DNA of 36,228 bases from an uncultured bacterium (GTDB lineage Bacteria; Planctomycetota; J058): contig CALDQK010000819.1 in NCBI GenBank assembly GCA_937911525.1, positions 1 to 36,228 of the forward strand, written 5' to 3'. The notes under the pieces are model-generated. The model ran no database searches, was not told the origin of the DNA, and worked only from the letters and a program-made list of their open reading frames with translations. The translations under genes were made by a program, and so were the position numbers. Position 1 is the first letter of the stretch; each line of letters begins with the position of its first letter. This document shows positions 11,356-32,599 of the stretch, in pieces.

Positions 11356-14300
11356 CTACTCGGCGCCGAGGTCCCGGAGCAGCGATTGGCGCTGCTCCGT
11401 GAGCGCGTCCTTCAGCTCGAGCTCGGCCAGCGCCTCGATCCAGGCGTCCAGGTCGGCGGCCTGCACACGACCGACGCCGTGGCGGCGCAGGCGCGGCAGG
11501 AGCTTGAGCAGCAGCTCGTCGACGAGGGCTTGCTGTCGGCCGCTGTAGAACAGCACGTAGCAGGCGACCGCGAACACCAGACCCAGGCCCACCGAGGCAG
11601 GCGCGCCCTTCCACCAGAAGCCGAGCGTGCAGCCGCTGCAGAGCACCGCCGTCAGGGCGCAAGCCAGGGCTCCCGAGCGGGTGTCGAAGTCGACCTCCTC
11701 GCGGGCCTCTTTGAAGAGCTCGTCGAGGAGCTCTCGCCCCGAGAGGCGGGCGAAGCGGCGGGCCTCGGCCTCTTCCCGCGCTGAGGGGGCCTCCGTCTGG
11801 CGCCCACTCGCCGCCCGCTCTCGCGCCTGGCGTCCGCTGCGGGCCTGGGGCTTGCTCTCCTGCTCGGCCGTCCGCGAGACATCGAGCTTGAGCGGGCCGA
11901 CTCGCCGCTTGAGCTCACTCAGGGAGGGGCGCCCGACCCCGGCCCAGCCCAGGCGCTCGCGCAGGCGCTCGAGGTCGGCGTCCTCCCAGGTCGGGACCTT
12001 GCGGCGCCCGAAGAAGCTCGCGGCGCTCTCGGGGCTGAAGGGGCCCTGCGCCGGGGCTTCCTCCATGCGCGGCCGCTGCGCTTCGGCGAAGCGGCGCAGG
12101 AGAGGCTCCGCTCGCTTCCAGTCGACGGGGGGCTCCGGGTCGAGCTGCCAGTCGAGGTGCCACAGCTTCCAGCTGCCGTCGTCGGACCCCGTGACCAGGC
12201 GAGTTCCGTCGGGGGTTAGGGCCAGGCTCTTCGCGCCGCTGGGGGCGGGGACCTCGTGGACCACGTTCAGCTTGGGCAGCAAGCAGAGGCGCAGCCCGTC
12301 GTGCGCAAGGAGGGCCAGGTGCCGCCCGTCGGGCAGGAAGGCCAGAGCGTGCAGGCCGAAGGCCAAGCGCCGTTCGCTGGCGACCTCGGCACCCGTGCGC
12401 AGGTCCCACAAGCCGAAGGTCTGCCGGACGTCCTGGCCGCTGGCCGTCTCCTCACGCTCGTAGACCAGCCCCGCGACCCAGCGACCTCGTGGATCCAGAG
12501 CGCAGCGGCTCAGCTGAACGGGGAGGCTCAGCGCTTCGCTGTCCTGGGCTACGTCCCACAGCACTCGCCGGTGGGGGTCACGCTCGTGCAGGCGCAGGAC
12601 CAGGTCTCGCTCGGGCAAGAACACGGGGGGCATGCCGCTGGCGCGCTTACCCTGGAGGTAGGTCGGCGCGGGGCGCTTGCGCAGCAAGCGCCCGCTGGGG
12701 AGGTGCCACAGGTAGCGGGCGGGGCCGCTCGTGGCGAGGCGCCCGTCGCTGCTGATCCCGAGGGTCAGGACGGAGAGGGGCGGGTTCTCGAGCCGGCCTC
12801 GGTGGCGGCCGCTGCGCGGGTCGATCCGCAACAGGCCGAGCTGTAGCTCGCCAGCGGGCGTGAAGCGGACAGCGCCCGCCGGCGCGGCCGGCTGGGTCGA
12901 GACCTGCGCTCCGCTGGCCAGCTCCCACACCTGCACGCTCTGGGGGTGGACCGTCGCCAGGAGCTCGCCGCGGGGGTCGATCCGGCAGGCGTAGATCGGG
13001 TCGCCGGTCTGGACCGTGCGCGTCTCCCACAGCTCGCGGACGACGCGGCGCGGACAGACGCGGGCGAGCTCTTCGAGCACCTCGACCACCGCCTGGTGGC
13101 GGTCGAAGCCGGGCACGCGTCGAGCGAGCGCCGTCTCCCGCGCGGCCTCCGCGAGGCGCCCCTCGGTGAGGGCGGCCTGCGCGCGAGCCAGCCCCTCGCG
13201 CAAGGAGCGCTCCCGCTCGAGCGCCTGCTTGCTGTCGAGGGCTCGGCAGAGGGCCAGCGGCGCGTGATAGCGCGAGCGGAAGCAGGGGAGGTCGGCCAGG
13301 GCGAGGTCGCCCGGGCGCAGCTCACTGCTCCCGTAGTCGGCGGCGGCTATGGGGAGCGGGGTGCGGGCCTGGCGGGGAAAGGTGTAGAGGACGCGATCTC
13401 CAGGCAGCTCGTGGACGCGGTGTTTGCCCGGTTCGTTGCGTAGGTAGCGCGCGCCGTCCTGGCTGAGGCCGGTCTGGGCCCGGAACCAGCGGCGCTGGGG
13501 ACCGGGGGCGAACTGGTCCAGGCGCTCGGCGGCCCACGCCTCCCGGGTCGGCGCCTCGTAGGAGAGCGCGCCCTCGGCGCTCCAGCAGTAAGGCGCAGCG
13601 CGCCCGCGCTTGGAGTTGGCCCAGGCGTGCGCTGAGCCGTCGCTGGCGACGAGGAGCCGCGTGAGCGAAGTCGACTCGCTCGGCGCAGGGAAGGCGCGGT
13701 GCTCGCCCGAGCGCAGATCCCACAGGTGGAGGGCCATGCGCGGGTCTCCCAGCGCGCCGGTCGTGACCGTCCCCGCGGCGACCCAGCGCCCACAGGGCGA
13801 GGCGCCCACGCTGGCCAGCGGGAGCTCGGACCCTTCGAGCGCGCGCAGCTGCTCACCGCTGAGGGCGTCCCACACCCAGAGCGTCTTGCCGAAGCCCCCC
13901 GCCAGCGCGTGACCGGTGGGGTCGAGCAACGCGTGCTGAAACCAGCGCAGGCTGCGCAGCGAGGGACGCGCCAGGTCGCGCTTCGCCGCAGGCGGGACCT
14001 CCCCCAGGACGTGTACGAGCTCCCCCGTGACCCGCGAGCGCAGCTCGAGGCGCTCGCCCGCCTGAGTGATCTGCAGCGTGCGCTCGGGCGACCAGGACGC
14101 GGGCGCCGGCTCGAGCTGCTCGGGCAGGCCGAGTGAGCGCAGCTCCACCTTCCGCAGGCGCGCCAGGGAGAGCGCCTCTTTGACCTCGGCCCGCTCGCGC
14201 GTCTTCTCGGGGAGGGCCTCGAGCAGCTCCAGCGCCGCCGCCCCGTCCCCGCGCTCGAGGTGTAGCTGCGCCAGGAAGCGACCCTTGCGCCCGGTGCGCG

Positions 14301-15681
14301 AGCTGCGGGCCGTCTCGACTCGGGACAGGGCCTCGACGTCGCTCAGCTCGCCTGCGCGCCACCGGACCAGCGCCAGGTCGTAGGTGCTCTCGGGGTGTCC
14401 GCCCTCGGTCTCGAGGGCCTCCTCCCACACCCGGCGCGCTTCGTCGGAGCGGCCGAGGTCGAAGAGCGAGAGCGCCTGGTTGCAGAGGCCGGCGGCAGTG
14501 CGGGTGGGCAGGTGGGGCTCGGTGCGCGCGCTCGCTCCGCTCGCGGTCTCGAAGAGCTCGGACAGCAGCGCGCGCACGTCACCGGCGCGGGGTCGGGCGC
14601 GCGGATCTTTGTCCAGCAGGCGCAGCAAGAGCTCACCGAGCGCGGGGGGCAGGTCGGGCCGGAGCTCGCGCGGATCCGGGGGGCGCTCGAAGCGGTGGCG
14701 GTTGATAAGCACGTGGGCTGGCTCGCGCTCCTCGTAGCGGTCGAAGGGACGCCGGCCGCAGCAGAGCTCGAACAGAACGACGCCCAGGCCGTAGAGGTCC
14801 GCGGCCGGGGTCGCCTCGCCGGCGGCAGCCCACTGCTCAGGGGCGGCATACTCCGGCGTGCCCATGCCCTGGTCGACGAGGGTCAGGCCCGCGCCTCCCG
14901 AGCTGGCGCCGCCGCTGAGCTCCTCCTCGCCGGCCGTCTTGACCAGGCCGAAGTCGGTCACCTTGAGCTCGAGGTCCGGCGTCAGCAGGCAGTTCGCAGG
15001 CTTGACGTCGCGGTGGACCAGGCCGCGCTCGTGCGCGTAGGCAAGGCCGTCGAGGAGCTGCAGGCCCAGGTCGAGGGCGTCGGCCAGAATGGGCGCGCCT
15101 GCCTGACCTCGGATCCAGTCTTTGAGCGTCCCGCCGGGGATCCACTCGACGAAGATCCGCAGCAGCCCGTCGAGCTCGCGCACGTAGAAACACTGCGCGA
15201 TGTTGGGGTGGAGGCCGAGGCCTGCCCAGGTCTCGGCCTCGCGGCGGAAGCGCTCGAGCGAGAGTGGGTCCTGCACCAAGCGCGGGAGCGGCGTCTTGAC
15301 CGCGAGGTCGATCCCCCACTCGAGGTGGCGGACCCGGTAGACGGCGCCCATGCCGCCACGACCGAGCAGGGCCCGAACCTCGTAGCGGCGCGCGACCTTG
15401 TCGCCGATCTGCCACTCGGCGGGGACCTCGACCGTGGACTTGGGCGGGGCGGCCGCAGGAGCCGTGCCGGGAGGGCCGTGGCTGAGGGTGCCGCCAGCGG
15501 CGGGCACAGGGGCCGAGCCGGGGGGGCCGTGGCTGAGGGTGCCCTCAGCGGCGGGCGCAGGAGCCGTGCCGGGGGGACCGTGGCTGAGGGTGCCGCCCTC
15601 GGCGGAGGGCGGAGGAGTGGGCGCGCCGTGGGTGAGGGTCTCCTCGGGGCCCGCCGCCTCGTTCTCCTGGCCGTCGTCCAC
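11356..15681 (-). CDS. Large Ser/Thr protein kinase with TPR-like and WD40-like regions
   Basis: A 1441-residue protein. The start at GTG 15681 is set by GGAGGGAG 4 nt upstream; a longer in-frame reading would run into the divergent FHA gene. Residues 15-81 contain three exact-length 17-residue repeats starting TLSHGPPG and one degenerate copy (TLTHG). The kinase domain spans about 100-375, with glycine loop [10 protein letters not shown]129, HRDVKPAN (D225), DFG (243-245) and [10 protein letters not shown], so it should be active. Residues of about 385-520 look TPR-like. About 540-1230 form WD40-like blades (for example [20 protein letters not shown] followed by KLWHLDW). Near the C-terminus two hydrophobic segments ([35 protein letters not shown]) suggest a membrane anchor. 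The WD40 part probably binds partners. It lies 45 bp from the divergent FHA-kinase. Confidence 0.93.
15439..15639 (-). repeat. 51-bp in-frame tandem repeat encoding TLSHGPPG units
   Basis: Three copies of a 51-bp unit (15439-15591), whose GCTGAGGGTG core recurs at 15481, 15532 and 15583, encode 17-residue repeats beginning TLSHGPPG. A degenerate fourth unit (TLTHGAP) precedes them up to 15639. It lies in the disordered N-terminus of the WD40-like kinase. It is coding sequence, not a CRISPR array. Confidence 0.9.
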
Positions 15682-15685
15682 GAGT

Positions 15686-15693
15686 CTCCCTCC
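15686..15693 (-). promoter_or_regulatory. Ribosome-binding site of the WD40-like kinase
   Basis: GGAGGGAG on the minus strand sits 4 nt before GTG 15681 and decides this start. It occupies part of the 45-bp gap between the two divergent kinase genes, leaving little room for two separate core promoters. Confidence 0.7.
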
Positions 15694-15726
15694 GCGCAAC
15701 CCATCGTCGCATGTCACACTGGGACC

Positions 15727-17361
15727 ATGAAGGTGACTTTGCGTGTGCTCTCCGGCCCCATGGAGGGCAAGACCTTCGAGTTCGCGGAGCCGGATCGCTT
15801 CCTCTTTGGGCGCTCCGCAGAGGCGCGCTGCTCGCTGCCAGACGACCCCTTCGTCTCGAGCCTGCACTTCTTGCTCGTGATCGCGCCGCCCCACGTCAGC
15901 CTGCATGAGCTGGGCAGCAAGAACGGCACCTACGTGAACGGCGTCCGCTACGGCGGGAGGAAGCCGCCCGAGGAGGGCGTCCAGCAGGCCCCTGAGGGGG
16001 AGCGCGACGTGGCGCTCCAGCACGGCGACCGGATCGGCGTCGGCGACACGGTGTTCGAACTGCAGGTCGAGTCGGCGGACACGGGGACCCTCTCCCACGC
16101 GCCCCTCGCCGCGCAGGCGGCGGCGGCAGGATCGCAAGGAGGCAAGGTCGCGGCCGAGCCCGCGTCGACGCCCGCGCCCGCGTCGACGCCCGCGCCCGCG
16201 TCGACGCCCGTTCCGAAGCCGACGCCCGTTCCGAAGCCGACCCCTCCGCCGAAGCCGACGCCCGCGCCGAAGCCGACGCCCGCGTCGAAGCCGACCCCTG
16301 CACCCAAGCCAGGGGGACGGCGCGTCCTCGCGCGCGGGAAGCCCGCGGCGCTCGGGAAGCTCCCTCCCGCCGAGCTGTTGCGCAAGCTGCTCGAGGCCGC
16401 CGCGGCGGCGCGGGGTCGCGTCGACGGGCCAGCCTTGCCCAACTACGAGCTCCTGCGGGTGCTCGGCGAAGGCGGAATGGGCAAGGTGTTCTTGGCTCGC
16501 GACCAGCGGAGCGGAGAGCAGGTCGCGATCAAGGTCATTCTTCCGCGCGCCGCCGTCAGCGAAGGCGCGGTCGAGGCCTTCTTGCGCGAGACGAACCTCA
16601 CCCGCCAGCTACGACACCCCAACGTGGTCCGCTTCATCGACGGGGGCTGCGTGCAGGGGACCTTCTTCCTGGTGCTCGAGTTCGTGAAGGGGAAAGACCT
16701 GAGTCAGCTGGTGGCCTCGCGTGGCGGCAAGCTGCCCCTCGAGGTGGCGGGGCCGATCCTGGTCAACGCGCTGAGGGGGTTGGGGCACGCCCACACCGCT
16801 CAGCTCGAGGCCGAGGTGGTCGAAGGAGGGCAGAAGCGCAAGCGGCGCTTCAGCGGCTTGGTGCACCGCGACCTCAAGCCCCAGAACATCCTCCTCGAGG
16901 ACCTCGGCGGCGGCGCCTTCCGGCCCAAGATCGCTGACCTCGGTTTGGCCAAGGTCTACGGCTCAGCGGGCCTGACCGACTTCACCCAGCCCGGGGCGAT
17001 CGCGGGCACGCCCTTTTACTGGCCGCGCGAGCAGATCACCAACTATCGCTACCTCAAGCCGGCCAGCGACGTGTTCTCGATGGGCGTGATCCTCTACCAG
17101 CTCCTCTCGGGCGCGCTCCCGCGGGAGGGCTTCCAGCGCGCGGGAGGGCGCCTGAACTTCAACCGCATCTGCGCGGTGATCATGGGCGAGCCGATCGTGC
17201 CGATCACGCGCCGCGTGCCGGGACTCCCTGCGGGAGTCAGGAAGGTGATCGATCGTTCCCTGGCGGAGGATCCGGGCCAGCGCTACCCCGACGCCTCGGC
17301 TATGGGCGACGCGCTGCGCGCTGCCCTCGTCGACGCCGGCGTGGAGGTCCGCTACCGCTAG
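15727..17361 (+). CDS. FHA domain-Ser/Thr protein kinase fusion
   Basis: A 544-residue protein starting at ATG 15727. Residues 1-115 are an FHA phosphothreonine-binding domain with all signature groups: [20 protein letters not shown] and [17 protein letters not shown] motif (residues 120-126) and a Pro-rich linker of TPAPAS and KPTPAP units (147-196) follow. The kinase domain (about 240-540) has [10 protein letters not shown]269 and HRDLKPQN (D382). The metal-binding DFG is DLG (404-406), and the usual APE reads W-P-R-E. A basic insert [15 protein letters not shown] precedes the catalytic loop. DLG still keeps the essential Asp, so activity is plausible. There is no membrane segment, so it is probably cytoplasmic. 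The stop overlaps the convergent DUF1570-like gene by 4 bp. It likely reads phosphothreonines made by itself or by the divergent kinase. Confidence 0.95.
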
Positions 17362-19849: not shown

Positions 19850-22800
19850 CTAGGCAGCCGGGGGAGCAGCATCCACGCCCGAATCGGCCGGAGCGCCCCA
19901 GCCCGGTTCGCGGCCCACGAGCAGCAGGGCCGGCAGGGCGACCAGGTCGCACACCCAGGCGCTGAGGCAGGTCAGGGCGATCAGGGAGCCGAAGTAGCGG
20001 GTCGGGGCGAAGTCCGAGACCGCGAAGGCGCCAAAGCCCAGCGCGACGGCCGCCGTGGTGACCGTCACGGGGCGGCCGACCAGCCACAGGGTGTCGCGCA
20101 CGGCGGGCCCTGAGCTCACGCCGTCGCGGCGGGCCAGGTGGTGGTGGTGCAGGAGGTGGATCGTGTCGTCGACCACGAGGCCCAGCGCGATCCCGGCCAC
20201 GGTCACGGTCGCCGTGTTGAGCGGCACCCCGAACCAGCCCATGGCGCCCAGGGTGATCAGGATCGGCAGCACGTTGGGCAGGAGCGACACCAGGACCAGC
20301 CCCAGCGAGCGGTAGGCGAGCAGGAGCACGGCGGTCACGACCAGCAGCGCCAGCCCGAAGGAGCGCAGCTGGGTGTCGACCAGGAGCGCCTGGGTGCGCA
20401 CTAGGAGGGGGACCGCGCCGCTGAGTCGCAGGCTGGCGGGCTCCTCGCGGAGGGAAGCCGGGATCTCGCCGCGGAGGCGGTTCACCAGGCGGCCGAAGGC
20501 CTCCGAGCTGGTGGTCTGGCAGGCGAGCGTGATCCGCAGGGCGAGGGTCCCGTCCGGCAGCAGGCGCAGGTGGCTCTCGGCCACGCCGCGCACGTCGTCC
20601 TGCAGGCCCGCGCGCAGGAGCGCCGCCAGCGCGGCCGGCGAGAGCTGGTCCCAGCGCGGGTCGAGGCTGAGGGGCGAGATCACCTGCCCCACCAAGGGAT
20701 CCCGCCGCGCGTCGGCCACGAAGGCGCGCAGGTCGCCCAGGCGCTGGGCCCTGAGCAGCTCGTCCTTGGGTCCCTCCAGCCACAGCTCCAGGGGGGTGAG
20801 GCCCAGCAGGCGCTCCTCGACCTCGGCGTAGGCGCGCGGGAGGCGGTGCTCGGCCGGAAAGAACTGCAGGACGTGCGACTCGAAGCGCAGCCGGCGCGCG
20901 CCCTCGACGCCGACCCCGGCCAGGATCAGCGCCACCAGCAGGATCGGGAGCGCCCCGCGCCGCAGGGCCCGGGTCAGCCGCTCGGCGCGGGCCTGGCTCC
21001 AGCCGCTGGCGCGGGGCGCGGGGAGCGGGCTCGTGAGCAAGAGCGCGGGCAGCAAGCTGAACACCAGCCCGCAGGCGATCAGGGCGCCCGCGGCGGCGAA
21101 GATCCCCAGGTCGCGCACGGGCGGGATCTCGGAGAAGGCCAGCGAGCCGAAGCCGGCCGCGGTCGTGAGGGCGGTCAGGGCGCAGGGCGGCAGGGTCTCG
21201 CGCGCGGCGCGGGCCCAGAGCTCGCGCGGCTCGAGCTGCTCGGTGACCAGGGCCTGTCCGACCAGGGCCTGGGCCCGGCTGACGAAGTGCAGCGCGTAGG
21301 CGGTCGTGATCACGACCAGCACCGCGGGCAGGACGACCACGATCAGGTTGAGGGTCCGCCCCGCGGCGCCCAGGAGCCCGACCGTCCACAGGGCGGTCGC
21401 ACCCGCCGTGACCAGGATCGCGAGCGCGGCGCGCGGGGCGCGCAGGGCGGCGATCAGGACGCACACCATGAGCACCGCCACGAGCGGGAAGAGCAACCCG
21501 AAGGACTGCTGGCTGGCGACGTCGAGGTCGTGGGTGATCGCCTCGGGGCCCGCCAGCCACAGCCCACCCAGCTCGGCCTGGCGCTTCGCCAGCGCCGCTT
21601 CGATCCGGGCCACGAGCGCGGCGCGCGCGCCGGGATCCAGGCCGGGACGCGGCAGCACGAGCAGCCCTGCCATCTGGCGGTCCGGCCGCACCAGCAGGCG
21701 CCCGGGGAGCGAGCTGACCCACTCGGGCGCGCTCGCCACGGGCGGCAGCTCGATCGGGGCGGCGTCGTCGGGCGGGATCAGGCTCGCGGCGCTGGGGTCG
21801 GAGAGCAGCTCGCGCGCGCGCCGGCGCGCGACCTCGTCGGCCAGGCGGCGCGCCGGATCGGCCGGAGCCTCCGCGCTCGGCTCGAGCGCCTCGAGCAGCA
21901 GCTCGCGGAAGCGCTCGTAGGCCGCGCGCTGGGCCGCCAGCACCGCCTCGATCGACGAGCCGCGCGGAGTCGCGGCCAGGCTGGGCGCGAAGTGGCGGGC
22001 CTCGAGCACCCGCGCGAGCGGCCCGGCCAGCTCGCGCGCCGCCAGGAAGTGGGGCTCGGCCTTGCTGGGGTCGCCGCCCAGACCGCGCCCGAGGCTGGTG
22101 TAGCGGAGCGCGAAGTAGAGGCGCGGCCCCGCCCGCCGCCAGGCGGAGGCCTCCTGGGGCGTGTTCTCGAGCGCCCACCGCATGACGGCGTCGGTCCGGG
22201 GCAGGTCCCGCGCCAGGCGCACGTCACCTGGGTTGGCGCGCATCTCGGCGCCGCGGGCGAAGGCCCACCAGAAGAGCGCCTCGCGCTTCAGGCGCGCCGC
22301 GGCGTCGACCTGCTGCAGGGCGACGCCGAGGTCGCTCTCCTCGGCCCCGCTCAGCCGCTCGCCCAGGGCGGGGTCGGCCAGGGCGACCAAGGCGGCCGCC
22401 TGGGCGCGGCGGCAGCGCTGGCGCGTCTCCTCGCCGCGGGCGGGCAGGAGCAGGAAGGCCGAGCCGGCGCAGAGCTCGGCCTCGAAGAGCGCCAGCTCGC
22501 GGCGGGCGGTCGAGGTCGCGGGGTCCGCGCCGCTCAGGCTGGCTCGCGCGTCCCGGAGCGCGCTCAGGGCGGCGGGCAGCTCGGCCTTGGCCTGGGCCAC
22601 GAGGTCCAGCTCGGCCAGCGGCGACTGGACCTCGACCACGCCCTCGAGGGCGCGCAGGTCGTCGGCCAGCCCCGCGAGGGCCTGGCGGGCGGCGGGCGGC
22701 GTCAGCGGGCGCTCGCCGCGGGTCGCGACCAGGAAGAAGGTGTCCCCGCCGAAGCGGGCCAGCAGGTCCTGGTAGACGGCGCGGGCGGGGTCGCGGGTCG

Positions 22801-22924
22801 GGAGCCAGGCTTCGGGGCGGTTGTCGAAGCGGAGGCGCAGCCCAGCGGCGAGCGCGAGCGCGAGGGAGATCAGGGCCAGGCCGAGCAGGGTTCGGCGGCG
22901 GTGGGCGAGGAGCGACTCGATCAC
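19850..22924 (-). CDS. MMPL/RND superfamily exporter
   Basis: A 1024-residue inner-membrane protein with two RND halves. TM1 (RRTLLGLALISLALALAAGL) is followed by a large periplasmic loop of about 440 residues rich in Ala, Arg and Glu. A block of TMs around residues 465-640 comes next, then a second loop and a final block. The family signature VVDDTIHLLHHHHLARR lies in the second block, and VITTAYALHFVSRAQ at the equivalent place in the first. The two-fold layout and length fit MMPL-type exporters of lipids or other hydrophobic molecules driven by proton flow. The start is GTG 22924, with no clear ribosome-binding site. It heads a tight operon with apaG and a TerB-like gene. The substrate is unknown. 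Confidence 0.93.
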   Translation of the reverse strand: MIESLLAHRRRTLLGLALISLALALAAGLRLRFDNRPEAWLPTRDPARAVYQDLLARFGGDTFFLVATRGERPLTPPAARQALAGLADDLRALEGVVEVQSPLAELDLVAQAKAELPAALSALRDARASLSGADPATSTARRELALFEAELCAGSAFLLLPARGEETRQRCRRAQAAALVALADPALGERLSGAEESDLGVALQQVDAAARLKREALFWWAFARGAEMRANPGDVRLARDLPRTDAVMRWALENTPQEASAWRRAGPRLYFALRYTSLGRGLGGDPSKAEPHFLAARELAGPLARVLEARHFAPSLAATPRGSSIEAVLAAQRAAYERFRELLLEALEPSAEAPADPARRLADEVARRRARELLSDPSAASLIPPDDAAPIELPPVASAPEWVSSLPGRLLVRPDRQMAGLLVLPRPGLDPGARAALVARIEAALAKRQAELGGLWLAGPEAITHDLDVASQQSFGLLFPLVAVLMVCVLIAALRAPRAALAILVTAGATALWTVGLLGAAGRTLNLIVVVLPAVLVVITTAYALHFVSRAQALVGQALVTEQLEPRELWARAARETLPPCALTALTTAAGFGSLAFSEIPPVRDLGIFAAAGALIACGLVFSLLPALLLTSPLPAPRASGWSQARAERLTRALRRGALPILLVALILAGVGVEGARRLRFESHVLQFFPAEHRLPRAYAEVEERLLGLTPLELWLEGPKDELLRAQRLGDLRAFVADARRDPLVGQVISPLSLDPRWDQLSPAALAALLRAGLQDDVRGVAESHLRLLPDGTLALRITLACQTTSSEAFGRLVNRLRGEIPASLREEPASLRLSGAVPLLVRTQALLVDTQLRSFGLALLVVTAVLLLAYRSLGLVLVSLLPNVLPILITLGAMGWFGVPLNTATVTVAGIALGLVVDDTIHLLHHHHLARRDGVSSGPAVRDTLWLVGRPVTVTTAAVALGFGAFAVSDFAPTRYFGSLIALTCLSAWVCDLVALPALLLVGREPGWGAPADSGVDAAPPAA

Positions 22925-24347: not shown

Positions 24348-24377
24348 CTGACAGAGTCGAGCGGGTTCGCATAGAGT
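24348..24377 (+). promoter_or_regulatory. Candidate promoter for the Pro/Gly-rich membrane protein gene
   Basis: CTGACA (24348-24353), five of six matches to the -35 consensus, is followed after 18 nt by TAGAGT (24372-24377), four of six to -10. The expected transcript would start about 25 nt before ATG 24409. Just upstream, CCTGGCC (24319-24325) and GGCCAGG (24336-24342) form an inverted repeat that could be an operator. Confidence 0.35.
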
Positions 24378-24408
24378 GTTCGGCCTTCCGTCACCGCGAG
24401 GAGTAGAC

Positions 24409-25314
24409 ATGCAGCCCCCTGGCCCGCCCCCCGGCCCCCCCGGTCCCCCTCCTGGTATGCCCCCTGGTCCGCCTCCCGGCGGTCCCCCCGGTCCTCCGCC
24501 GGGCGGCATGCCCGCACCCGCGCCCGCCCCGGCTCCCGCGCCCGCCCCGGCCCCCGGGCCCACGCTGGGAGGTTTCCAGGCTGGCGCCGCCGCCTCGGCC
24601 GCTCAGGACGCCGCCGCGGCCGCGCAGGCCAAGATGCGCGCCGAGCTCGAGCAGCAGGTCAAGGGCAAGCCGCAGGTCGTCGTGGCCAAGCTGCTCTTCA
24701 TTCTGGGAATGGCCCTCTTCGCGAGCTGCACCTTCCTCAACAAGTGGAACAAGGTGAAGGCGCGCGCCGCCGAGTCCGAGATCCGCGCGATCAAGGCGGA
24801 CTACTGGGCCAAGCCGCTCAAGCCGATCCCCCCCGCCAAGCCGCCGAGCCCCAAGGCGGCGCCCTTCGACATGGCCTTCAAGATCTACGAGACCAAGGAG
24901 CTCCCCTCCGGCGGCTCGACGACGAGCGAGAAGACCGACGAGGAGGCGCTCAATGGCGAGATGGAGGCGCACGAGAAGCGCAAGACCGCAGCGGACAAGG
25001 CGCTCTTCGAGTATCGCCAGAGCGACCTGAAGGACTACGCGATCGAGGCCTACAAGTACGCCCTCGACACCTACGAGGACATGCCCTCGCGTCAGGCCGA
25101 GGTGCGCGATCTCGAGATCGCCGCCGAGAAGTACCGTCACGCGGCGACTCAGAGCTCGCTCGGCTACCTCGTGCGCTGGGCCGGCATGACCATGATGTTC
25201 CTGGGCATGTCGATCCTCGCGATCACGGGCGAGAAGAACGAGCAGCTCGTGGCGCTCCTGATCATGGGTCTCGGCCTGATCTGGCCGATCGTGAACCTGG
25301 GCATCGTCACCTAG
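24409..25314 (+). CDS. Membrane protein with Pro/Gly-rich N-terminus
   Basis: A 301-residue protein. ATG 24409 is chosen because GCGAGGAG precedes it at proper spacing; an in-frame Met 11 codons earlier lacks one. Residues 1-55 are almost only Pro, Gly, Met and Ala (PPGPPPGPPG units, then PAPAPAPAP), a disordered segment of the kind seen in eukaryotic WW or SH3 ligands. One TM lies near residues 88-108 (VVVAKLLFILGMALFASCTF). A charged helical region of about 150 residues follows, then two TMs at the C-terminus (WAGMTMMFLGMSILAI and VALLIMGLGLIWPIVNLGI). I do not recognise the family. A strong hairpin 28 nt after the stop separates it from the pseudokinase gene downstream. Confidence 0.85.
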   Translation: MQPPGPPPGPPGPPPGMPPGPPPGGPPGPPPGGMPAPAPAPAPAPAPAPGPTLGGFQAGAAASAAQDAAAAAQAKMRAELEQQVKGKPQVVVAKLLFILGMALFASCTFLNKWNKVKARAAESEIRAIKADYWAKPLKPIPPAKPPSPKAAPFDMAFKIYETKELPSGGSTTSEKTDEEALNGEMEAHEKRKTAADKALFEYRQSDLKDYAIEAYKYALDTYEDMPSRQAEVRDLEIAAEKYRHAATQSSLGYLVRWAGMTMMFLGMSILAITGEKNEQLVALLIMGLGLIWPIVNLGIVT

Positions 25315-25397: not shown

Positions 25398-25437
25398 TGG
25401 TTTCAGTTAGGATTTTGCCCACGGAGGACCTCACCCG

Positions 25438-27510
25438 GTGCACAAGGGAGACGTGATCGCGGACCGCTATCGCATCGAGCGCCTGCTCGTGCGCCGGGGT
25501 ACGCATCAGGTCCACGAGGCGACCGACCTCGCCCACGAGGCGCCGGTCGCGGTCAAGGTCTCGACCCCTTCGACGGCCTACTACGAGCTCAGCGACCAGA
25601 TCCAGCGCGCGGTTCGGCTGGGGCGCGAGCTCGAGCGAGCCTCGGCCGGGATCGTGCGCCCCCTCGACGGGGGCGAGGTCGGTGACTCGCTCTACCTGGT
25701 CATGGACTACATCCACATGGCCGAGGACCTCGACCTCGCCGCGGACGGCGTCGACGAGCGCCTGGTTCGGCTGCGGCGCGCGGCGCTGCTCGTGCGCGAG
25801 CTGCACGCCCTGCGGGTGGTCCACCGCGACGTGCGCCCCGACAGCTTCCTGATCAGCGGGAGCGGCCGGGTCCACCTGACCAACTTCGGCCTGGGGCGCT
25901 CCCTCGACGACCGCCTCGACGACGCGGACGTGGGGCGCAGCGTGCTCGCCCTGGCCCAGGAGCACGGCTACCTCGCGCCGGAGGTGCTCGACAACGGCAC
26001 CCTCGACGTCGCCAGCGACGTCTACTCCCTCGGCGTGATGCTCTTCGAGCTGCTGACGGGCGAGCGGCCCTACCGGGGCACGCCGGACGACGTGATCGCC
26101 GCGCACAAGGAGGTCCTCGACGGCTACCAGCCGCAGCCGATCCCGAGCGACTTCCGCCCCAGCGTGGCGCCCGAGCTCGACGAGGTCGTGCAGTGGGCGA
26201 CGCACCCCGACCCGCTCCAGCGCTTCGCGACCGTCGACGAGCTGCTGGCGGCGCTCGAGGAGGTGGCCCCCGACCGCCCGGTCACGACCGGGCGCCGCGC
26301 TCACCCGCCGCGACGTCGCGCGCCGCCGCCTCCTCCCGTGCGCCACACCGAGCGAATGCAGGCTCCCCAGGTCGGCCCCGCGCCCGGGCCCGGGGAGCAA
26401 TACGTCTACCCCGAGGACCGCCACGACGAGTTCGAGTATCCGGAGGGCTACGACCCCGATGCCGGCTACGACGAGTACGGCGAGGCCTACGAGGCGGCGC
26501 CGGACGGCGAGGAGGCGGCCGCCCCGCCTGCGCCGGAGCCGCCTCCCGAGCCAGAGGTCGACCCCCTCCAGCGGGTCCTGGTCACCCTCCGCCGCACGCT
26601 CCCCCTGATCGCGGGCGGCGTGAGCCTCCAGATCGACGCGCACGAGGTGAAGTTCGTCTACTTCTCGGCGCAGGAGGACATCTCCGGCACGGTCGCGCTC
26701 AGCTATCGCGTCGAGGACCGCGAGGGTCGCTTCGGGCACGTCGAGCAGCGCGTGACCCTCGACCTCGCCGCCGCGCAGGGCAAGCCCTCGGGCGAGGCGA
26801 ACCTGCTCCTCGCGGCCAACGCGATCAACCTCTACGGGGACGGGCTGGCCTGCCAGTTCGGCGACGACCGGCTCCGCCTGCGGCGCTCGGTGCTCTTGGG
26901 CCCGACCGCGCCCCTCGAGCCCGACGACCTCCAGCGGCACCTCGACCTGCTCCTGCGCGTGTGGCCGCAGGTCTTCGCCGCCTTGCGCGACGTGCAGGAC
27001 GGCGCGCCCTGGAACGAGGCGCTAGCCTTCTTGCTGCGCCCGCCGGTCCCCGACTACGAGCGCCTCGAGACGCTCAAGGCCATGCTCGAGCGCGAGGGCT
27101 ACGCGATCAGCGAGCTCGAGGAGGGCGAGCAGATCGGGATCGGCACCGGCGACGATCAGGTCGAGATCGCCTGCTATCAGGAGCAGATCCTGGGCACCTT
27201 CCTGGTGCGCCCCTGGCAAGCCCCCAAGTCGGAGACGCGCGCGCTCAAGAAGAACAAGCACGCTCGCCAGACCGAGGCGATCCTGGCCGAGCTGAACCGC
27301 AAGAACCTCGAGTCCTTCTGCACCCTGGCCTGGGACCCCAAGCGCGGCGTGATCGCGACCGCGCCCCTGGCAGAGGTGGCCTTCGTCCCCGAGCGGCTCG
27401 ACCTCTTCTTGGGGCTGCTCCGCTCGGCCAAGGACGAGGTGTTCGAGTCCCTCGGCGAGGGCGAGGGCCAGGCCCAGCGGCGCAAGACGTGGATGTTCTG
27501 GCGCAAGTAG
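25438..27510 (+). CDS. Predicted pseudokinase with C-terminal region resembling YbjN
   Basis: A 690-residue protein starting at GTG 25438 after ACGGAGGAC. Residues 10-275 have a complete protein-kinase fold: the beta3 lysine AVKVS (K40), HRD, HGYLAPE and DVYSLGVMLFELLTGERPY. The catalytic elements are degraded, however. The glycine loop reads LVRRGTHQV, the catalytic loop is HRDVRPDSF (Lys to Arg at 133, Asn to Ser at 136), and DFG is NFG (149-151), losing the metal-binding Asp. It is therefore predicted to be catalytically dead. A Pro/Arg stretch and a Tyr/Asp/Glu-rich linker (320-352, nine tyrosines) follow. Residues of about 375-690 hold two alpha/beta units that remind me of YbjN / type III chaperone-like folds; that call is tentative. 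There is no membrane segment. It may act as a scaffold for the neighbouring kinases. Confidence 0.88.
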   Translation: MHKGDVIADRYRIERLLVRRGTHQVHEATDLAHEAPVAVKVSTPSTAYYELSDQIQRAVRLGRELERASAGIVRPLDGGEVGDSLYLVMDYIHMAEDLDLAADGVDERLVRLRRAALLVRELHALRVVHRDVRPDSFLISGSGRVHLTNFGLGRSLDDRLDDADVGRSVLALAQEHGYLAPEVLDNGTLDVASDVYSLGVMLFELLTGERPYRGTPDDVIAAHKEVLDGYQPQPIPSDFRPSVAPELDEVVQWATHPDPLQRFATVDELLAALEEVAPDRPVTTGRRAHPPRRRAPPPPPVRHTERMQAPQVGPAPGPGEQYVYPEDRHDEFEYPEGYDPDAGYDEYGEAYEAAPDGEEAAAPPAPEPPPEPEVDPLQRVLVTLRRTLPLIAGGVSLQIDAHEVKFVYFSAQEDISGTVALSYRVEDREGRFGHVEQRVTLDLAAAQGKPSGEANLLLAANAINLYGDGLACQFGDDRLRLRRSVLLGPTAPLEPDDLQRHLDLLLRVWPQVFAALRDVQDGAPWNEALAFLLRPPVPDYERLETLKAMLEREGYAISELEEGEQIGIGTGDDQVEIACYQEQILGTFLVRPWQAPKSETRALKKNKHARQTEAILAELNRKNLESFCTLAWDPKRGVIATAPLAEVAFVPERLDLFLGLLRSAKDEVFESLGEGEGQAQRRKTWMFWRK

Positions 27511-27820: not shown

Positions 27821-30800
27821 GTGAGCGAGGACGCGAGGACCGGAGACGGGCGCTCCGCGGGGAAGCACCGCGCGCTCCGCCCCCCAGGCCCTCCACCCCC
27901 CAGCGGACGTGAACCCGCCGTCCCCCCTCCAGCGGCGCTCCCGGGAGGCGCGGCCCCTGAGGAGACCCTCGCCGAAGAGGGAGCCGCCGAAGCGGGCGCG
28001 GGGCGGGGACGCGAGACGGGTCCCCACGGGACGCTCCCGATCGAGGGGCCCCAGGCGCGCGGCACCGGTCGGCACGCCCAGGCGCAGGGGCGGCGGACCA
28101 CGGGCAGGCAGGCCGCGACCGGCGCGCGCCAGACGGGGCGGCGGACCACGGGGCGGCAGGCCGCGGCCAGCGGCCGCCAGAGCGGGCGGCGCGCCAGCGC
28201 GCGCCTGGACCCTCGCTCGACGGGGCGGCGCACGACGGGGCGCACGCGCTGGATCGGTCCGCTGCAGGTGCTGGAGAAGCTCGGCTCCGGGGCCATGGGG
28301 GACGTCTACCTCGGCTACGACCCGGGCCGGGACGAGCGCTGCGCGATCAAGGTCCTGGCGGGGGTCTACCAGGAGGACGAGGAGGCGCTGAGCCGCTTCA
28401 GCCGCGAAGTGGAGCTACTGCGCCAGCTGAGCGCCCACCCCGGGATCGTGCGGATCCACAGCGCAGGCAGGAGCGCGGGCGGGCGCCCCTACCTCTCCAT
28501 GGAGCTGGTCGAGGGCGACGACCTGCAGGTCCTGCTCCAGCAAGGGCTCGAGCCGCGCCGGGCGCTGCGCCTGATCGGAGAGGTGACCGCGGCCCTGGCC
28601 CACGTCCACGCCCACGGCTACGTGCACCGCGACGTCAAGCCGAGCAACGTCCTGATCGACCAGGCCGGGCACGCCAAGCTGGCCGACTTCGGGCTCGCGA
28701 CCGCGACGGGCGGCAAGCTCGAGCGGCTGACGGTGACCGGCCAGACGCTCGGGACGCCGGCCTACATGGCGCCCGAGCAGGTGACCAAGGACCTGGGCGA
28801 GATCGGCCCCTGGACCGACGTCTACGCGCTCGGCGCCATGATCTACCGCGCCCTGAGCGGGACGCCGCCCAACGGGGCGGACACCACGCTCGCGATCTGC
28901 GAGCGGCTGACCTCTGGGCGACCCCCCCTGCCCCTGCGCAAGGCGCGGCCCGACGCGCTCGGGCGCCAGCTCGACGCCGTCGTCATGCGGGCGCTCTCGC
29001 CGCGGACCAGCGAGCGCTACCCCGACGCGGGCCACCTCCTGCGGGCCCTCGAGGAGCGCGTGAGCGAGCTGGCCGGGTTGAGCTCGGCCTCGGGGCGCGG
29101 GCCGGCGCCGGGGCCCCGGCCGCGCAGCCCCTGGCGCGGGCCCCTGGGCGTCGGGCTGCTGATCGCGGGCTCGCTGGCGCCGATCCTGGTGGCCTTCGCG
29201 ATCCTGTTCGAGCAGGAGCCGCCCCACCGACGCGGCGGCGGGGGCGGAGTCGAGCTGGCGCTGCAGGCCTTTCGCGCGGGGGACCTCGAGGCCGCGCTGG
29301 GGGAGCTCCCGCGTGAAGAGCTCTCGCCCCAGAGCCGGCGGCGCTCGCGGGAGCCCGAGGTAGCGGAGCTCCTGGCCTGCGCGGGCGAGGCGCGCGCCGC
29401 CCTCACGCACCCCGGCGCCACCCCGGCGCTGCGCGCGCGCCTCGCCGCCGAGCTGGACGACGCGCGCGCCTGGGAGAGCGCCTGCCGGCAGCTCCCGCGG
29501 CAGCACGCCGAGGCCCTGGCGCTCGAGCTCGAGCGTCCGCTGCCCCGGCAGGTCGGCCCCGATCAGCCGGAGTGGGGCCCGCTCGCCGCGGGCGAACGCG
29601 CGCTGGCGGCGGGGGCCTTGGGGCTCGCGGCCGGCGACTTCGCGCGCGCCCGCGCGTCCGCTGACGCAGAGCTGCGCTTCGCAGGTGCGCTCGGTCTGCT
29701 GCGCGTCAGCGTCGCGAGCGGCGACCTGGAGTGGGCGCTGGAGGCCTGGGGCGAGGCCGCCGCGGACGCCGACGCGCCCCTGGCGCGAGCCCGCTGCGCG
29801 GCCTGGGCTGCCTACCTCGTGCGGGTCGCGCAGGCGCGCCTCCCGGTGGGGAGGCAGGCCAAGCCCAGCGAGCTGCCAGCGCGGCTGCGGGAGGCTCAGG
29901 CCAGGGCGGAGTCCTTCGCGCCGGGGCTGCCCCTGAGCGCGTTCGCGCGTCAGCTCACGCGCGCGGAGGCCCCCGCGCCGCCGCCGGAGCTGCGCGGCCC
30001 GTGGTCCCTCGCGCGCCGCCGCGCGCGCGGGCTGCTGGACCTGGCGCAGCGCGGGCTGGATCAGGCTGGGCTCGAGCAGGCCGCCCACCGGCTGCGCCTG
30101 GGCTGGCGCTGGGGCTGGCGCGAGCCCTTGGCCCTGGCGCGCGCCGCCAGCTTGCTGCGGGCCCCCGATCGGGCGCGCGCTTGGCTCGAGCTCGCTCCAG
30201 CGGGGAGCGAGCGCGACCTGCTCGAGCTGCGGATCGCGGGGCAGGAGCTCGACGCCGCCGGTGAGCGCCTCGACTACGGGCTGGGCGAGGACGAGGCCGC
30301 CCAGCGCTCCCTCGCGGAGCGCTGGCTGGACGTGGTCACCAAGGCGCGCGCGGCCCTCGCGCGCGCCAGCGCGCCGGCGCGCCCTCGGGTCGAGCTGGCC
30401 CTGGCGCGGGCCCTGCTCGAGCGGATTCGCCGCATGGTCGAGGCGCGCGCGGACCCCGACCCCAGCGAGCGTGAGGAGCTGGCCCAGCTCTGCGCGGGCC
30501 TGGGCGCGGACGTCGAGGTGGATCGAGTCGTCGGCGCGCGGCTCGGGCTCGGGCGCGCGCTCTGGCGCTCGGATCCCGAGCAGGTGGACGAGGCGCGGAT
30601 CTACATGGCTCGGGTCGTTCAGGCTTGGCGGGAAGCCCGACCCGAGCTGCCCTGGAAGGTGCGGCTCGGGGCGCTCCAGGTGCGGGCCTCGACCAACAGC
30701 CTCTCGCACGCCCTGACCCATATCGGCCTGACCGGCGACCGCCGCGCCCAGGCGCGCCTCTGCTTGCGGCTGGCCGAGGTCGGCCCCGCCAGCGAGGCGC

Positions 30801-32599
30801 TCGGACACCTGCGTCGGGGCCGCCAGCTCGCCCCCGAGGACGGGGAGCTCAGCCTGGCGCTGGCCTTGCGCGAGTTCCCCGGGGCCAAGCTGGCCAGCCC
30901 CGAGGCGCTGCAGCTCCTGGCCGCTGCCTTGATCGCGGCGCCCGAGCAGACCTGCGCGGTGGTGACCCTGCTGGGGTGCCTCGAAGTGCCCCCGGGCCCA
31001 GCCCCCACGCTGCCGGACCCCGCTCCGCCGGTCGCCTTGCTGGCGCGGGCCCTGCGCGGCGCGCTGGGAGCCTTCGCGGCGGGCCCGCTTCAGCCGGCCC
31101 AGCAGGAAGAGCTGCGGGCCGCCTGTCAGGCCGCGGCGCGCGCCGGCCTCGCCGAGCGGCCCCTCCCGGCGGCTCACCTGCTGCGGGTGCTCCTCGCGCG
31201 ACGCCTGCAAGGGGACCTCGAGCCGCGCGAACGGGACTTCGCCTTGGCCTGCGCGCGGGCGGGCATGCCCTGGAGCGCGGCCCCGCCGCGGGTGGGCCTG
31301 GTCCTGGGCTTGGACACCTCGAGCGCGCTCCTGGCGCGGGGAGCGCTCTGGAGCTTGCAGGACCCGGCCGCCCAGCTCGGGGGCCTCGGGCTGCTGGCGA
31401 TCCCGCCCCAGCGCGCGCGGGAGCTGGCCGCCACCCTCCAGGAGCGCCTCGCGCGCCGCGGACCGCCCCGCGACAGCGACGAGCTGGCGCTCCTGATCGG
31501 GCGCCTCCACCGGCGCCCGCTCGACCCAGCGGACGTCCGGCTGATCGAGTCCATGATCGCGGGGCGGCTGGCGCTCGACGACCTGCTCGTCGCAGCCGAG
31601 CCCGACCTGCGCCTCCGCGCCGGCGCGCGGATGCACCTCCTGGACGCCATGATCGGCCTGGCGGGCCCCGGCGAGGCCGCGCGCGTCGAGGCCCTGGCCG
31701 GCGGCGCCGTCGCGCGGGCGGTGTGGACCGTGCCCCTCGGCGGGACCCTCAGCCCCCCGCTGCGCAGCCCGCTGGAGTGCGGCCGGGGGCCCGACCTGGA
31801 GCGCCTGTGGGAGCCGAGGCTGCCCCAGCTCGCGGGCGTCGGCGTGCACGAGCCGCTGCAGTGGTGGGCCTCGCAATACGCCACCCGCGAGGGGGTCTCG
31901 GTCGCCTCGGGCCTCGAGCAGCTCTCGGCGGGGGCCTTCGGCTCGCGCCTCGGCCCGCTCCACCACTCGCGCGACGGGACCTTCGCCCTGCGCGGCCTGC
32001 ACGAGCTCGGCCTGCCCAACACGATCGAGGCCGACCGCCTCGAGCGTCGGCTGCAGCTCGAGCGGCACGTGGCCTTCGAGCCCGTCCGGCCCGCGGGGGT
32101 CGCGCTCCTCGACCGGGTCAGCGAGCTCCACTACCGACCGGCGCTCTGGAGCGAGGGCGAAGAGCGCAAGCGCTGCTGGAAGCGCTTCGAGGCGGCGCTG
32201 GCCCACACCGAGCGCTTGCTCGCGCCCGGGACGGAGCTGGCGACGCTGCACGGCTTGCGCGCGACGGCCTGGCTCGAGCGCGCCGGCCAGGCGCCCGGGC
32301 CGGCGGCGCGCCAGGCTCTGCTCGCCAAGGCCTGGCGCGAGAGCGACCTGGCCGAGGGGGCTCTGCCGGGGGATATCGAGCCCCCGATCTGGTGGGCGCT
32401 CCGCCGCGCCCGCGTGGCGGCCCTGCGCGACCGGGACGAGGCGCTCGAGGCGGCGGCGAAGGCCTTCCAGGAAGGCTGGGGCCCGCTCCCGCTGCCCGTC
32501 CAGAACCAGGTGCAGCGCGCCCTGCTGCACGACCCCTGGCTGGAGGAGCTGCGCGAGCGGCCGCGCTTCGCCGAGCTGCTGCGACTGGTGGGGGTCTGA
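27821..32599 (+). CDS. Giant transmembrane Ser/Thr protein kinase
   Basis: A 1592-residue protein, start GTG 27821 (weak ribosome-binding site; no better start before the kinase domain). Residues 1-143 are disordered, Pro-rich then Arg-rich, with three GRRTTGR motifs and one GRRASAR between 90 and 141. The kinase domain (about 146-415) is intact: GSGAMGDVY, K177, HRDVKPSN (D271), DFG (289-291) and GTPAYMAPEQ. A single TM (PLGVGLLIAGSLAPILVAFAILF, split around residues 441-464) follows. The remaining 1120 residues are Ala/Leu/Arg/Glu-rich and probably helical repeats of TPR type, though no clean repeat consensus is visible to me. The layout, with cytoplasmic kinase and huge extracytoplasmic part, repeats that of the kinase at the left edge. 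The ligand or partner is unknown. Confidence 0.93.
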   Translation: MSEDARTGDGRSAGKHRALRPPGPPPPSGREPAVPPPAALPGGAAPEETLAEEGAAEAGAGRGRETGPHGTLPIEGPQARGTGRHAQAQGRRTTGRQAATGARQTGRRTTGRQAAASGRQSGRRASARLDPRSTGRRTTGRTRWIGPLQVLEKLGSGAMGDVYLGYDPGRDERCAIKVLAGVYQEDEEALSRFSREVELLRQLSAHPGIVRIHSAGRSAGGRPYLSMELVEGDDLQVLLQQGLEPRRALRLIGEVTAALAHVHAHGYVHRDVKPSNVLIDQAGHAKLADFGLATATGGKLERLTVTGQTLGTPAYMAPEQVTKDLGEIGPWTDVYALGAMIYRALSGTPPNGADTTLAICERLTSGRPPLPLRKARPDALGRQLDAVVMRALSPRTSERYPDAGHLLRALEERVSELAGLSSASGRGPAPGPRPRSPWRGPLGVGLLIAGSLAPILVAFAILFEQEPPHRRGGGGGVELALQAFRAGDLEAALGELPREELSPQSRRRSREPEVAELLACAGEARAALTHPGATPALRARLAAELDDARAWESACRQLPRQHAEALALELERPLPRQVGPDQPEWGPLAAGERALAAGALGLAAGDFARARASADAELRFAGALGLLRVSVASGDLEWALEAWGEAAADADAPLARARCAAWAAYLVRVAQARLPVGRQAKPSELPARLREAQARAESFAPGLPLSAFARQLTRAEAPAPPPELRGPWSLARRRARGLLDLAQRGLDQAGLEQAAHRLRLGWRWGWREPLALARAASLLRAPDRARAWLELAPAGSERDLLELRIAGQELDAAGERLDYGLGEDEAAQRSLAERWLDVVTKARAALARASAPARPRVELALARALLERIRRMVEARADPDPSEREELAQLCAGLGADVEVDRVVGARLGLGRALWRSDPEQVDEARIYMARVVQAWREARPELPWKVRLGALQVRASTNSLSHALTHIGLTGDRRAQARLCLRLAEVGPASEALGHLRRGRQLAPEDGELSLALALREFPGAKLASPEALQLLAAALIAAPEQTCAVVTLLGCLEVPPGPAPTLPDPAPPVALLARALRGALGAFAAGPLQPAQQEELRAACQAAARAGLAERPLPAAHLLRVLLARRLQGDLEPRERDFALACARAGMPWSAAPPRVGLVLGLDTSSALLARGALWSLQDPAAQLGGLGLLAIPPQRARELAATLQERLARRGPPRDSDELALLIGRLHRRPLDPADVRLIESMIAGRLALDDLLVAAEPDLRLRAGARMHLLDAMIGLAGPGEAARVEALAGGAVARAVWTVPLGGTLSPPLRSPLECGRGPDLERLWEPRLPQLAGVGVHEPLQWWASQYATREGVSVASGLEQLSAGAFGSRLGPLHHSRDGTFALRGLHELGLPNTIEADRLERRLQLERHVAFEPVRPAGVALLDRVSELHYRPALWSEGEERKRCWKRFEAALAHTERLLAPGTELATLHGLRATAWLERAGQAPGPAARQALLAKAWRESDLAEGALPGDIEPPIWWALRRARVAALRDRDEALEAAAKAFQEGWGPLPLPVQNQVQRALLHDPWLEELRERPRFAELLRLVGV

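Follow-up and report, generated by a model that had tools for sequence, protein, structure and literature searches.

Introduction

Most of what is known about bacterial pseudokinases comes from their sequences, and few functions have been shown for them. A kinase fold is defined as a pseudokinase when at least one of the beta-3 lysine, the HRD aspartate and the DFG aspartate has been lost (PMC12599244). Bacterial kinase folds that are thought or shown not to transfer phosphate include EssB/YukC of the T7SSb, which acts by scaffolding, and chlamydial Pkn5 (PMC12599244, PMC5177608). A further bacterial pseudokinase family is DLHK, for which, as for ULK4, metal-independent ATP binding has been proposed (PMC12599244). 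Planctomycetes, YbjN and sulfatase-type fusions are not mentioned in that review. In another planctomycete, the KDD residues are kept in 525 of 610 putative kinases (PMC11032199), so pseudokinases themselves are not new to the phylum.

Fusions of a kinase with an FGE-sulfatase (DUF323/NirV) domain are known in Planctomycetota and Chlamydia (PMC11032199, PMC1262709). The structures of YbjN-family proteins have been likened to T3S chaperones (PMC5398634, PMC3575483), while peptide binding has been predicted for the TY-Chap families, of which TY-Chap2 has been described as two copies of the TY-chaperone domain (PMC9503650). Kinase–FGE fusions, bacterial pseudokinases and tandem domains of the YbjN fold are each known already. 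Here we analyzed a gene that joins a degenerate kinase-like domain to two predicted YbjN-fold units, and which is located in a 36,228-nt stretch of planctomycete DNA (the window), corresponding to contig C819 of a 10.2-Mb draft genome (G000).

Results and Discussion

Gene and domain layout

The gene consists of a single open frame on the forward strand, which encodes 690 amino acids, begins with GTG and has a GC3 value of 0.96. These properties, together with the upstream GGAGG and a full-length ortholog, confirmed that it is a real gene. The protein contains a degenerate kinase domain (residues 1–280), a proline-rich linker and two alpha/beta units. The features are as follows:

25438..27510, + strand, whole gene, 690-aa probable pseudokinase with a predicted tandem YbjN-fold C-terminus (open reading frame, GC3, ortholog, dN/dS)
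25423..25427, + strand, GGAGG, likely ribosome-binding site, 10 nt ahead of the GTG start (sequence)
25456..26277, + strand, kinase-like domain, residues about 7–280 (Pfam Pkinase; PknB structures by sequence)
25486..25512, + strand, degenerate glycine loop LVRRGTHQV, residues 17–25 (alignment with seven active relatives)
25822..25848, + strand, catalytic loop HRDVRPDSF, residues 129–137, with Lys replaced by Arg and Asn by Ser (alignment)
25882..25890, + strand, NFG in place of DFG, residues 149–151 (alignment, profile reading)
25900..25953, + strand, shortened and rebuilt activation segment SLDDRLDDADVGRSVLAL, residues 155–172 (16 of 18 residues common with the ortholog)
26293..26547, + strand, linker, residues 286–370 (RRAPPPP...ERMQ part conserved; Tyr-rich part, 26389–26511, not conserved)
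26563..26997, + strand, predicted YbjN/class I chaperone-fold unit 1, residues 376–520 (AF2, Foldseek; one relative touches TY-Chap1/YbjN here)
27055..27435, + strand, predicted YbjN/class I chaperone-fold unit 2, residues 540–666 (AF2, Foldseek)
27484..27507, + strand, basic Trp tail KTWMFWRK (KSWLPWRR in the ortholog; no active paralog has one)

Two orthologs of this protein are known: the window protein itself and L032, which is encoded in a genome of the same genus (G001, Planctomycetota MAG, isolate NORP233, JAESQQ010000829.1) that is separate from the window genome. L032 is 57% identical over its full length and has the same architecture. Hydropathy analysis predicted no transmembrane helix in the window protein, which also carries a chaperone-like C-terminus, and in these respects it differs from EssB, which is a membrane part of the T7SSb, and from Pkn5, which is exported. 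The linker had been described as tyrosine-rich, and such a stretch is indeed present in the window protein (seven Tyr in residues 318–358, a number reached in 59 of 5000 shuffles). It is missing from L032, and should therefore be dropped from the interpretation.

The kinase-like domain is most likely catalytically dead

The kinase-like domain belongs to the protein kinase superfamily (Hanks type), as indicated by a significant profile match across most of its length (Pfam PF00069, E = 3.3e-25, 89 bits, residues 24–264 against profile positions 14–253 of 263) and by the match of residues 7–280 to PknB structures in a sequence search. The motifs had been read correctly in the original prediction: the glycine loop is degenerate (VRRGTHQV), the catalytic loop is H129-R-D-V-R133-P-D-S136-F, and DFG is replaced by N149-F-G. 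An alignment with seven active-looking relatives of the same protein family showed that the pseudokinase state is common to both orthologs. In each of them the glycine loop, the helix-C Glu (E58A in the window protein, Ser in L032), the catalytic-loop Lys (Arg in both), the catalytic-loop Asn (Ser and Gln, respectively) and the DFG Asp (Asn and Gly) are lost. The corresponding motifs of L032 are AIRL, in which the beta-3 Lys is replaced by Arg, HRDVRPAQF and GFG. Thus, of the three residues whose conservation had been suggested as a check, R133 is the same in L032, and S136 and N149 are replaced there by other noncatalytic residues. The loss of the DFG Asp in both orthologs, and of the beta-3 Lys also in L032, places these proteins within the published definition of a pseudokinase (PMC12599244). 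The Thr and Gly residues of the activation and P+1 segments are gone in both orthologs as well. The identity of the rebuilt activation segment is among the better, though not the best, of the 18-residue windows of the kinase domain (mean of 11.9 identical residues). Since the metal- and phosphate-anchoring residues are gone and the activation segment is rebuilt, ordinary phosphotransfer is unlikely on the grounds of established kinase chemistry, and the domain is, as judged from its sequence, most likely catalytically dead.

The core of the domain is nevertheless kept. Among the 103 alignment columns that do not vary in the active relatives, both pseudokinases keep 57 and both have lost 24; the kept columns correspond to the structural core and include HRD, the APE Glu, D194 (the helix-F Asp) and R262. 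The kinase-like parts of the two orthologs are 65.7% identical.

The window protein retains K40 (the beta-3 Lys) and D131 (the HRD Asp, also kept in L032), which raises the question of whether the domain could be a nucleotide switch or an atypical enzyme, in which K40, D131 and R133 would help metal-free ATP binding, and which would signal by nucleotide-dependent shape or by unusual chemistry. These two residues, like the loss of the helix-C Glu, had gone unmentioned in the original prediction. Their retention and the identity of R133 in both orthologs are consistent with this explanation. The DLHK family also keeps the HRD Asp and a catalytic-loop Arg modelled as contacting ATP while the DFG Asp is lost, with the P. 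aeruginosa member reading Hrdlrpas and GFG (PMC12599244), which resembles HRDVRP in both orthologs. On the other hand, the glycine loop, the helix-C Glu, the catalytic-loop Asn and the DFG Asp are lost here, and K40 is Arg in L032. DLHK proteins, unlike the window protein, lack the beta-3 Lys yet keep the catalytic-loop Asn; they are also mainly proteobacterial and tied to helicase/DNA2 domains (PMC12599244). Taken together, a nucleotide switch appears unlikely. Membership in the DLHK family was rejected, in spite of the shared HRD Asp and Arg, given the replacement of the catalytic-loop Asn by Ser or Gln.

To place the domain among the other kinases of the genome, the catalytic positions of 148 kinase domains were read with the profile; these comprised 140 regions from the best 150 matches to the window protein, together with L005, the four remaining window kinases and three family members from this genome, while kinases more divergent than the best 150 matches fall outside of this survey. 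At the positions covered, 147 of the 148 domains are intact, the only exception being the protein at 25438–27510. As had been noted originally, the four other window kinases (91–2811, +; 11356–16137, −; the C-terminal part of 14395–17361, +; and 27821–32599, +) show no loss at the catalytic positions that they contain, the first of them being cut at the contig end.

The C-terminal units have a predicted chaperone fold

The original prediction likened the C-terminal half to YbjN or type III chaperone-like domains. The AF2 model of residues 365–690, calculated from an alignment of five rows (the window protein and four relatives), had a pLDDT of 77 and a pTM of 0.79, while a full-length model based on a four-row alignment (pLDDT 37) was set aside. 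The modelled topology consists of a helix, strands, a helix, two strands and a helix, repeated twice, which corresponds to the alpha-beta meander-alpha-beta-beta-alpha fold of YbjN and class I T3S chaperones. The top Foldseek matches in the PDB included Tll0839, AmyR, E. coli YbjN and DR1245, as well as the class I T3S chaperones CesT, SigE, SycE and Spa15. The probabilities of these matches were mostly 0.9–1.0, with TM-scores by target of 0.45–0.65 and modest E-values (0.003 and above); for YbjN, AmyR, DR1245 and CesT the probabilities were 0.92–1.0, the TM-scores by target 0.44–0.65 and the E-values 0.0067 and above. The matches were interspersed with some unrelated large proteins of low probability or low TM-score. 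Hence, the assignment of the predicted fold is good for both units, which share it with the YbjN family (E. coli YbjN, AmyR, DR1245) and with TY-Chap1/2/3 (PMC5398634, PMC3575483, PMC9503650).

The family assignment fared less well, because the sequence support was weak. The window protein had no match to YbjN (PF10722) or TY-Chap1 (PF22551) above the curated cut-offs, and a weak match was found in one relative only (G001:C896), with 23.4 bits to TY-Chap1 (E = 5.1e-5, cut-off 27) and an E-value of 0.037 to YbjN, both on unit 1. Neither the profile comparison between the two units nor that of each unit with standalone TY-Chap1 proteins was significant. No significant match was obtained when the PDB was searched by sequence with the C-terminal profiles, and a search of a viral structure library gave nothing useful. 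Five of the seven family genomes encode standalone TY-Chap1 proteins (PF22551; L190–L194); in G005 the match was weak, and the window genome had none. Peptide binding by the C-terminal units may be expected from their modelled fold.

The matches to CesT, SigE, SycE and Spa15 could also suggest a type III or flagellar export chaperone borne on a kinase scaffold, and a FlhA-type protein is encoded in three of the four family genomes tested, including the window genome. We consider this very unlikely, given that the draft genome G004 has the active fusion described below and no FlhA match, that no secretion genes were found among the window genes examined, and that YbjN shares the fold without evidence of a secretion role (PMC5398634).

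Active-looking paralogs share the C-terminal region

The C-terminal region was present in seven of 392 planctomycete genomes searched, all within the family of the window genome. In six of these seven (G000, G001, G002, G003, G004 and G006) it lies C-terminal to an active-looking kinase and an FGE-sulfatase domain; Pfam was run on five of these six proteins, the one from G004 being nearly identical to that from G006. Three more copies of the region are cut or near contig ends (G005, G001:C896 and G002:C234). Among the family genomes searched, the pseudokinase was found only in the two belonging to the window's genus, and both of these also encode an active-looking kinase–FGE–chaperone-like paralog. 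The window genome additionally encodes an active-looking kinase with a divergent C-terminal region and without FGE (G000:C1029, L031:1707–3890), in which the linker consists of repeated GTGKRPVASGRQPAADGR-like units ahead of that region.

In the central FGE-like domain of the active paralogs (L027, L022, L024, L025, L026 and L028), one of the two active-site cysteines of known FGEs is seemingly missing when read by eye, e.g., in GGAFRLSVDC, so this domain may bind or do other work rather than make formylglycine. In G006 and G004, the two genomes compared, a GMP synthase (guaA) gene follows the kinase–FGE–chaperone-like gene (L034:8081–12498 and L035:8105–13194).

The fusion of a kinase fold to the chaperone-like units is not peculiar to the dead kinase, but is shared with its active-looking paralogs. 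It was undescribed in the open-licence literature searched, where neither a fusion of a kinase to tandem YbjN-fold units nor a conserved dead copy was found. A tandem YbjN-fold tail was not found by term search in the reports of kinase–FGE fusions (PMC11032199, PMC1262709), and kinase fusions are undescribed in those of YbjN and TY-Chap (PMC5398634, PMC3575483, PMC9503650). The active paralogs are of the same kind as the known kinase–FGE (DUF323/NirV) fusions with an extra C-terminal module, while the pseudokinase, which appears to be derived from this kind, lacks the FGE domain, and its catalytic set is incomplete. Most likely, an active kinase–FGE–chaperone-like gene was duplicated, and one copy then lost the FGE-like domain and the catalytic residues; the most economical origin also includes the gain of the basic Trp tail. 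It is also possible that the pseudokinase was lost from the other genera of the family.

In the kinase tree the stem of the pseudokinase pair is long (0.96) and its end branches are of ordinary length; in the C-terminal tree the stem is 0.53. The trees did not resolve the branching order. A long stem with ordinary end branches would be produced if constraint had returned after a single burst of change.

Selection on the pseudokinase

Comparison of the window protein with L032 (NG86) gave a dN/dS of 0.35 for the whole gene; by part, it was 0.32 in the kinase-like domain, 0.28 in the linker and 0.37 in either C-terminal unit. The values are rough, due to high dS and biased composition, and no part appears neutral. 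Values of about 0.3–0.4 throughout indicate that the gene is not decaying. Although both genomes are draft MAGs, and that of the window is 90% complete with 6.4% contamination, a functionless decaying gene or an assembly chimera is highly improbable, and both were rejected on the basis of dN/dS well below 1 in every part, of the high GC3 of the window gene and of the intact full-length frame with the same architecture in the second, separately named MAG.

For the active pair that these two genomes encode (C276/C529), dN/dS was 0.24 over the kinase and 0.72 over the C-terminal region. The stronger constraint on the C-terminal units of the pseudokinase pair could mean that the kinase-like domain is a mere structural holder, and that the chaperone-like pair works alone in general protein stabilization, as suggested for YbjN, unrelated to the active paralog. 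The varied partners of YbjN-fold proteins (PMC3575483, PMC5398634) would agree with this. We regard it as improbable, however, because the kinase-like part is equally constrained, as seen from its identity and dN/dS, and its rebuilt activation segment is conserved.

A proposed client-binding role

As the kinase core and the chaperone-like pair are both under constraint, a binding role is suggested for each of them. The role of scaffold or decoy put forward in the original prediction is thus plausible, and the presence of an active-looking sister with the same tail in the same genome favors a scaffold or competitor for shared clients. We therefore tentatively propose, with somewhat less than even confidence, that the conserved, most likely dead kinase-like domain and the tandem chaperone-like module form a noncatalytic client-binding scaffold or a competitor of the active paralog. 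The chaperone-like pair, as a tandem, pseudo-dimeric module resembling peptide chaperones, would hold a client peptide or protein, while the kinase-like domain would dock onto a partner, the likeliest candidates being the active paralog and its substrates. The result would be scaffolding of, or competition with, the phosphorylation of the same clients, with no phosphotransfer by the pseudokinase, which probably works by holding proteins rather than by phosphorylating them.

This proposal is based on the loss of the same catalytic positions in both orthologs, where the replacing residues often differ and the core is kept; on the dN/dS values of the kinase-like part and the C-terminal units, in a genome where the other kinase domains surveyed are intact; and on the chaperone fold predicted for both units, the active-looking fusion in most genomes of the family, and the long stem with ordinary end branches. 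In a narrower version, which we hold to be rather doubtful, the dead duplicate would capture the same clients and would control, by competition or in heteromers, which of them the active paralog phosphorylates. If true, this would be a bacterial counterpart of paired kinase/pseudokinase regulation. Since an active sister bearing the same client-binding-like tail can be identified in the genome of the dead copy, the role of a dead kinase can here be addressed directly. Counted against the scaffold or competitor role are the retained K40 and D131, which could allow nucleotide binding, the number of orthologs, which is two, and the differences between their gene neighbors.

Gene neighborhood

A search for a conserved operon was negative, as the neighbors differ between the two orthologs. 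A single-protein scan of the genome contigs gave no match. The window gene is preceded on the same strand, at a distance of 123 nt, by a gene for a membrane protein with a very Pro/Gly-rich N-terminus (24376–25314, +), which had no Pfam family above the cut-off and no match in G001; its only relative is in G005 (33%). The divergent neighbor of the ortholog in G001 (L032:1–1560, −) encodes a protein with a Macro domain and a CHAT protease, relatives of which (52–56%) are present in G000, G003, G004 and G006, with the G000 copy located on contig C887, away from the pseudokinase. Elsewhere in the window, the gene at 19850–22924 (−) encodes an MMPL/RND-type membrane protein, between whose membrane halves a TRAP transporter T-component (TAtT) domain is inserted.
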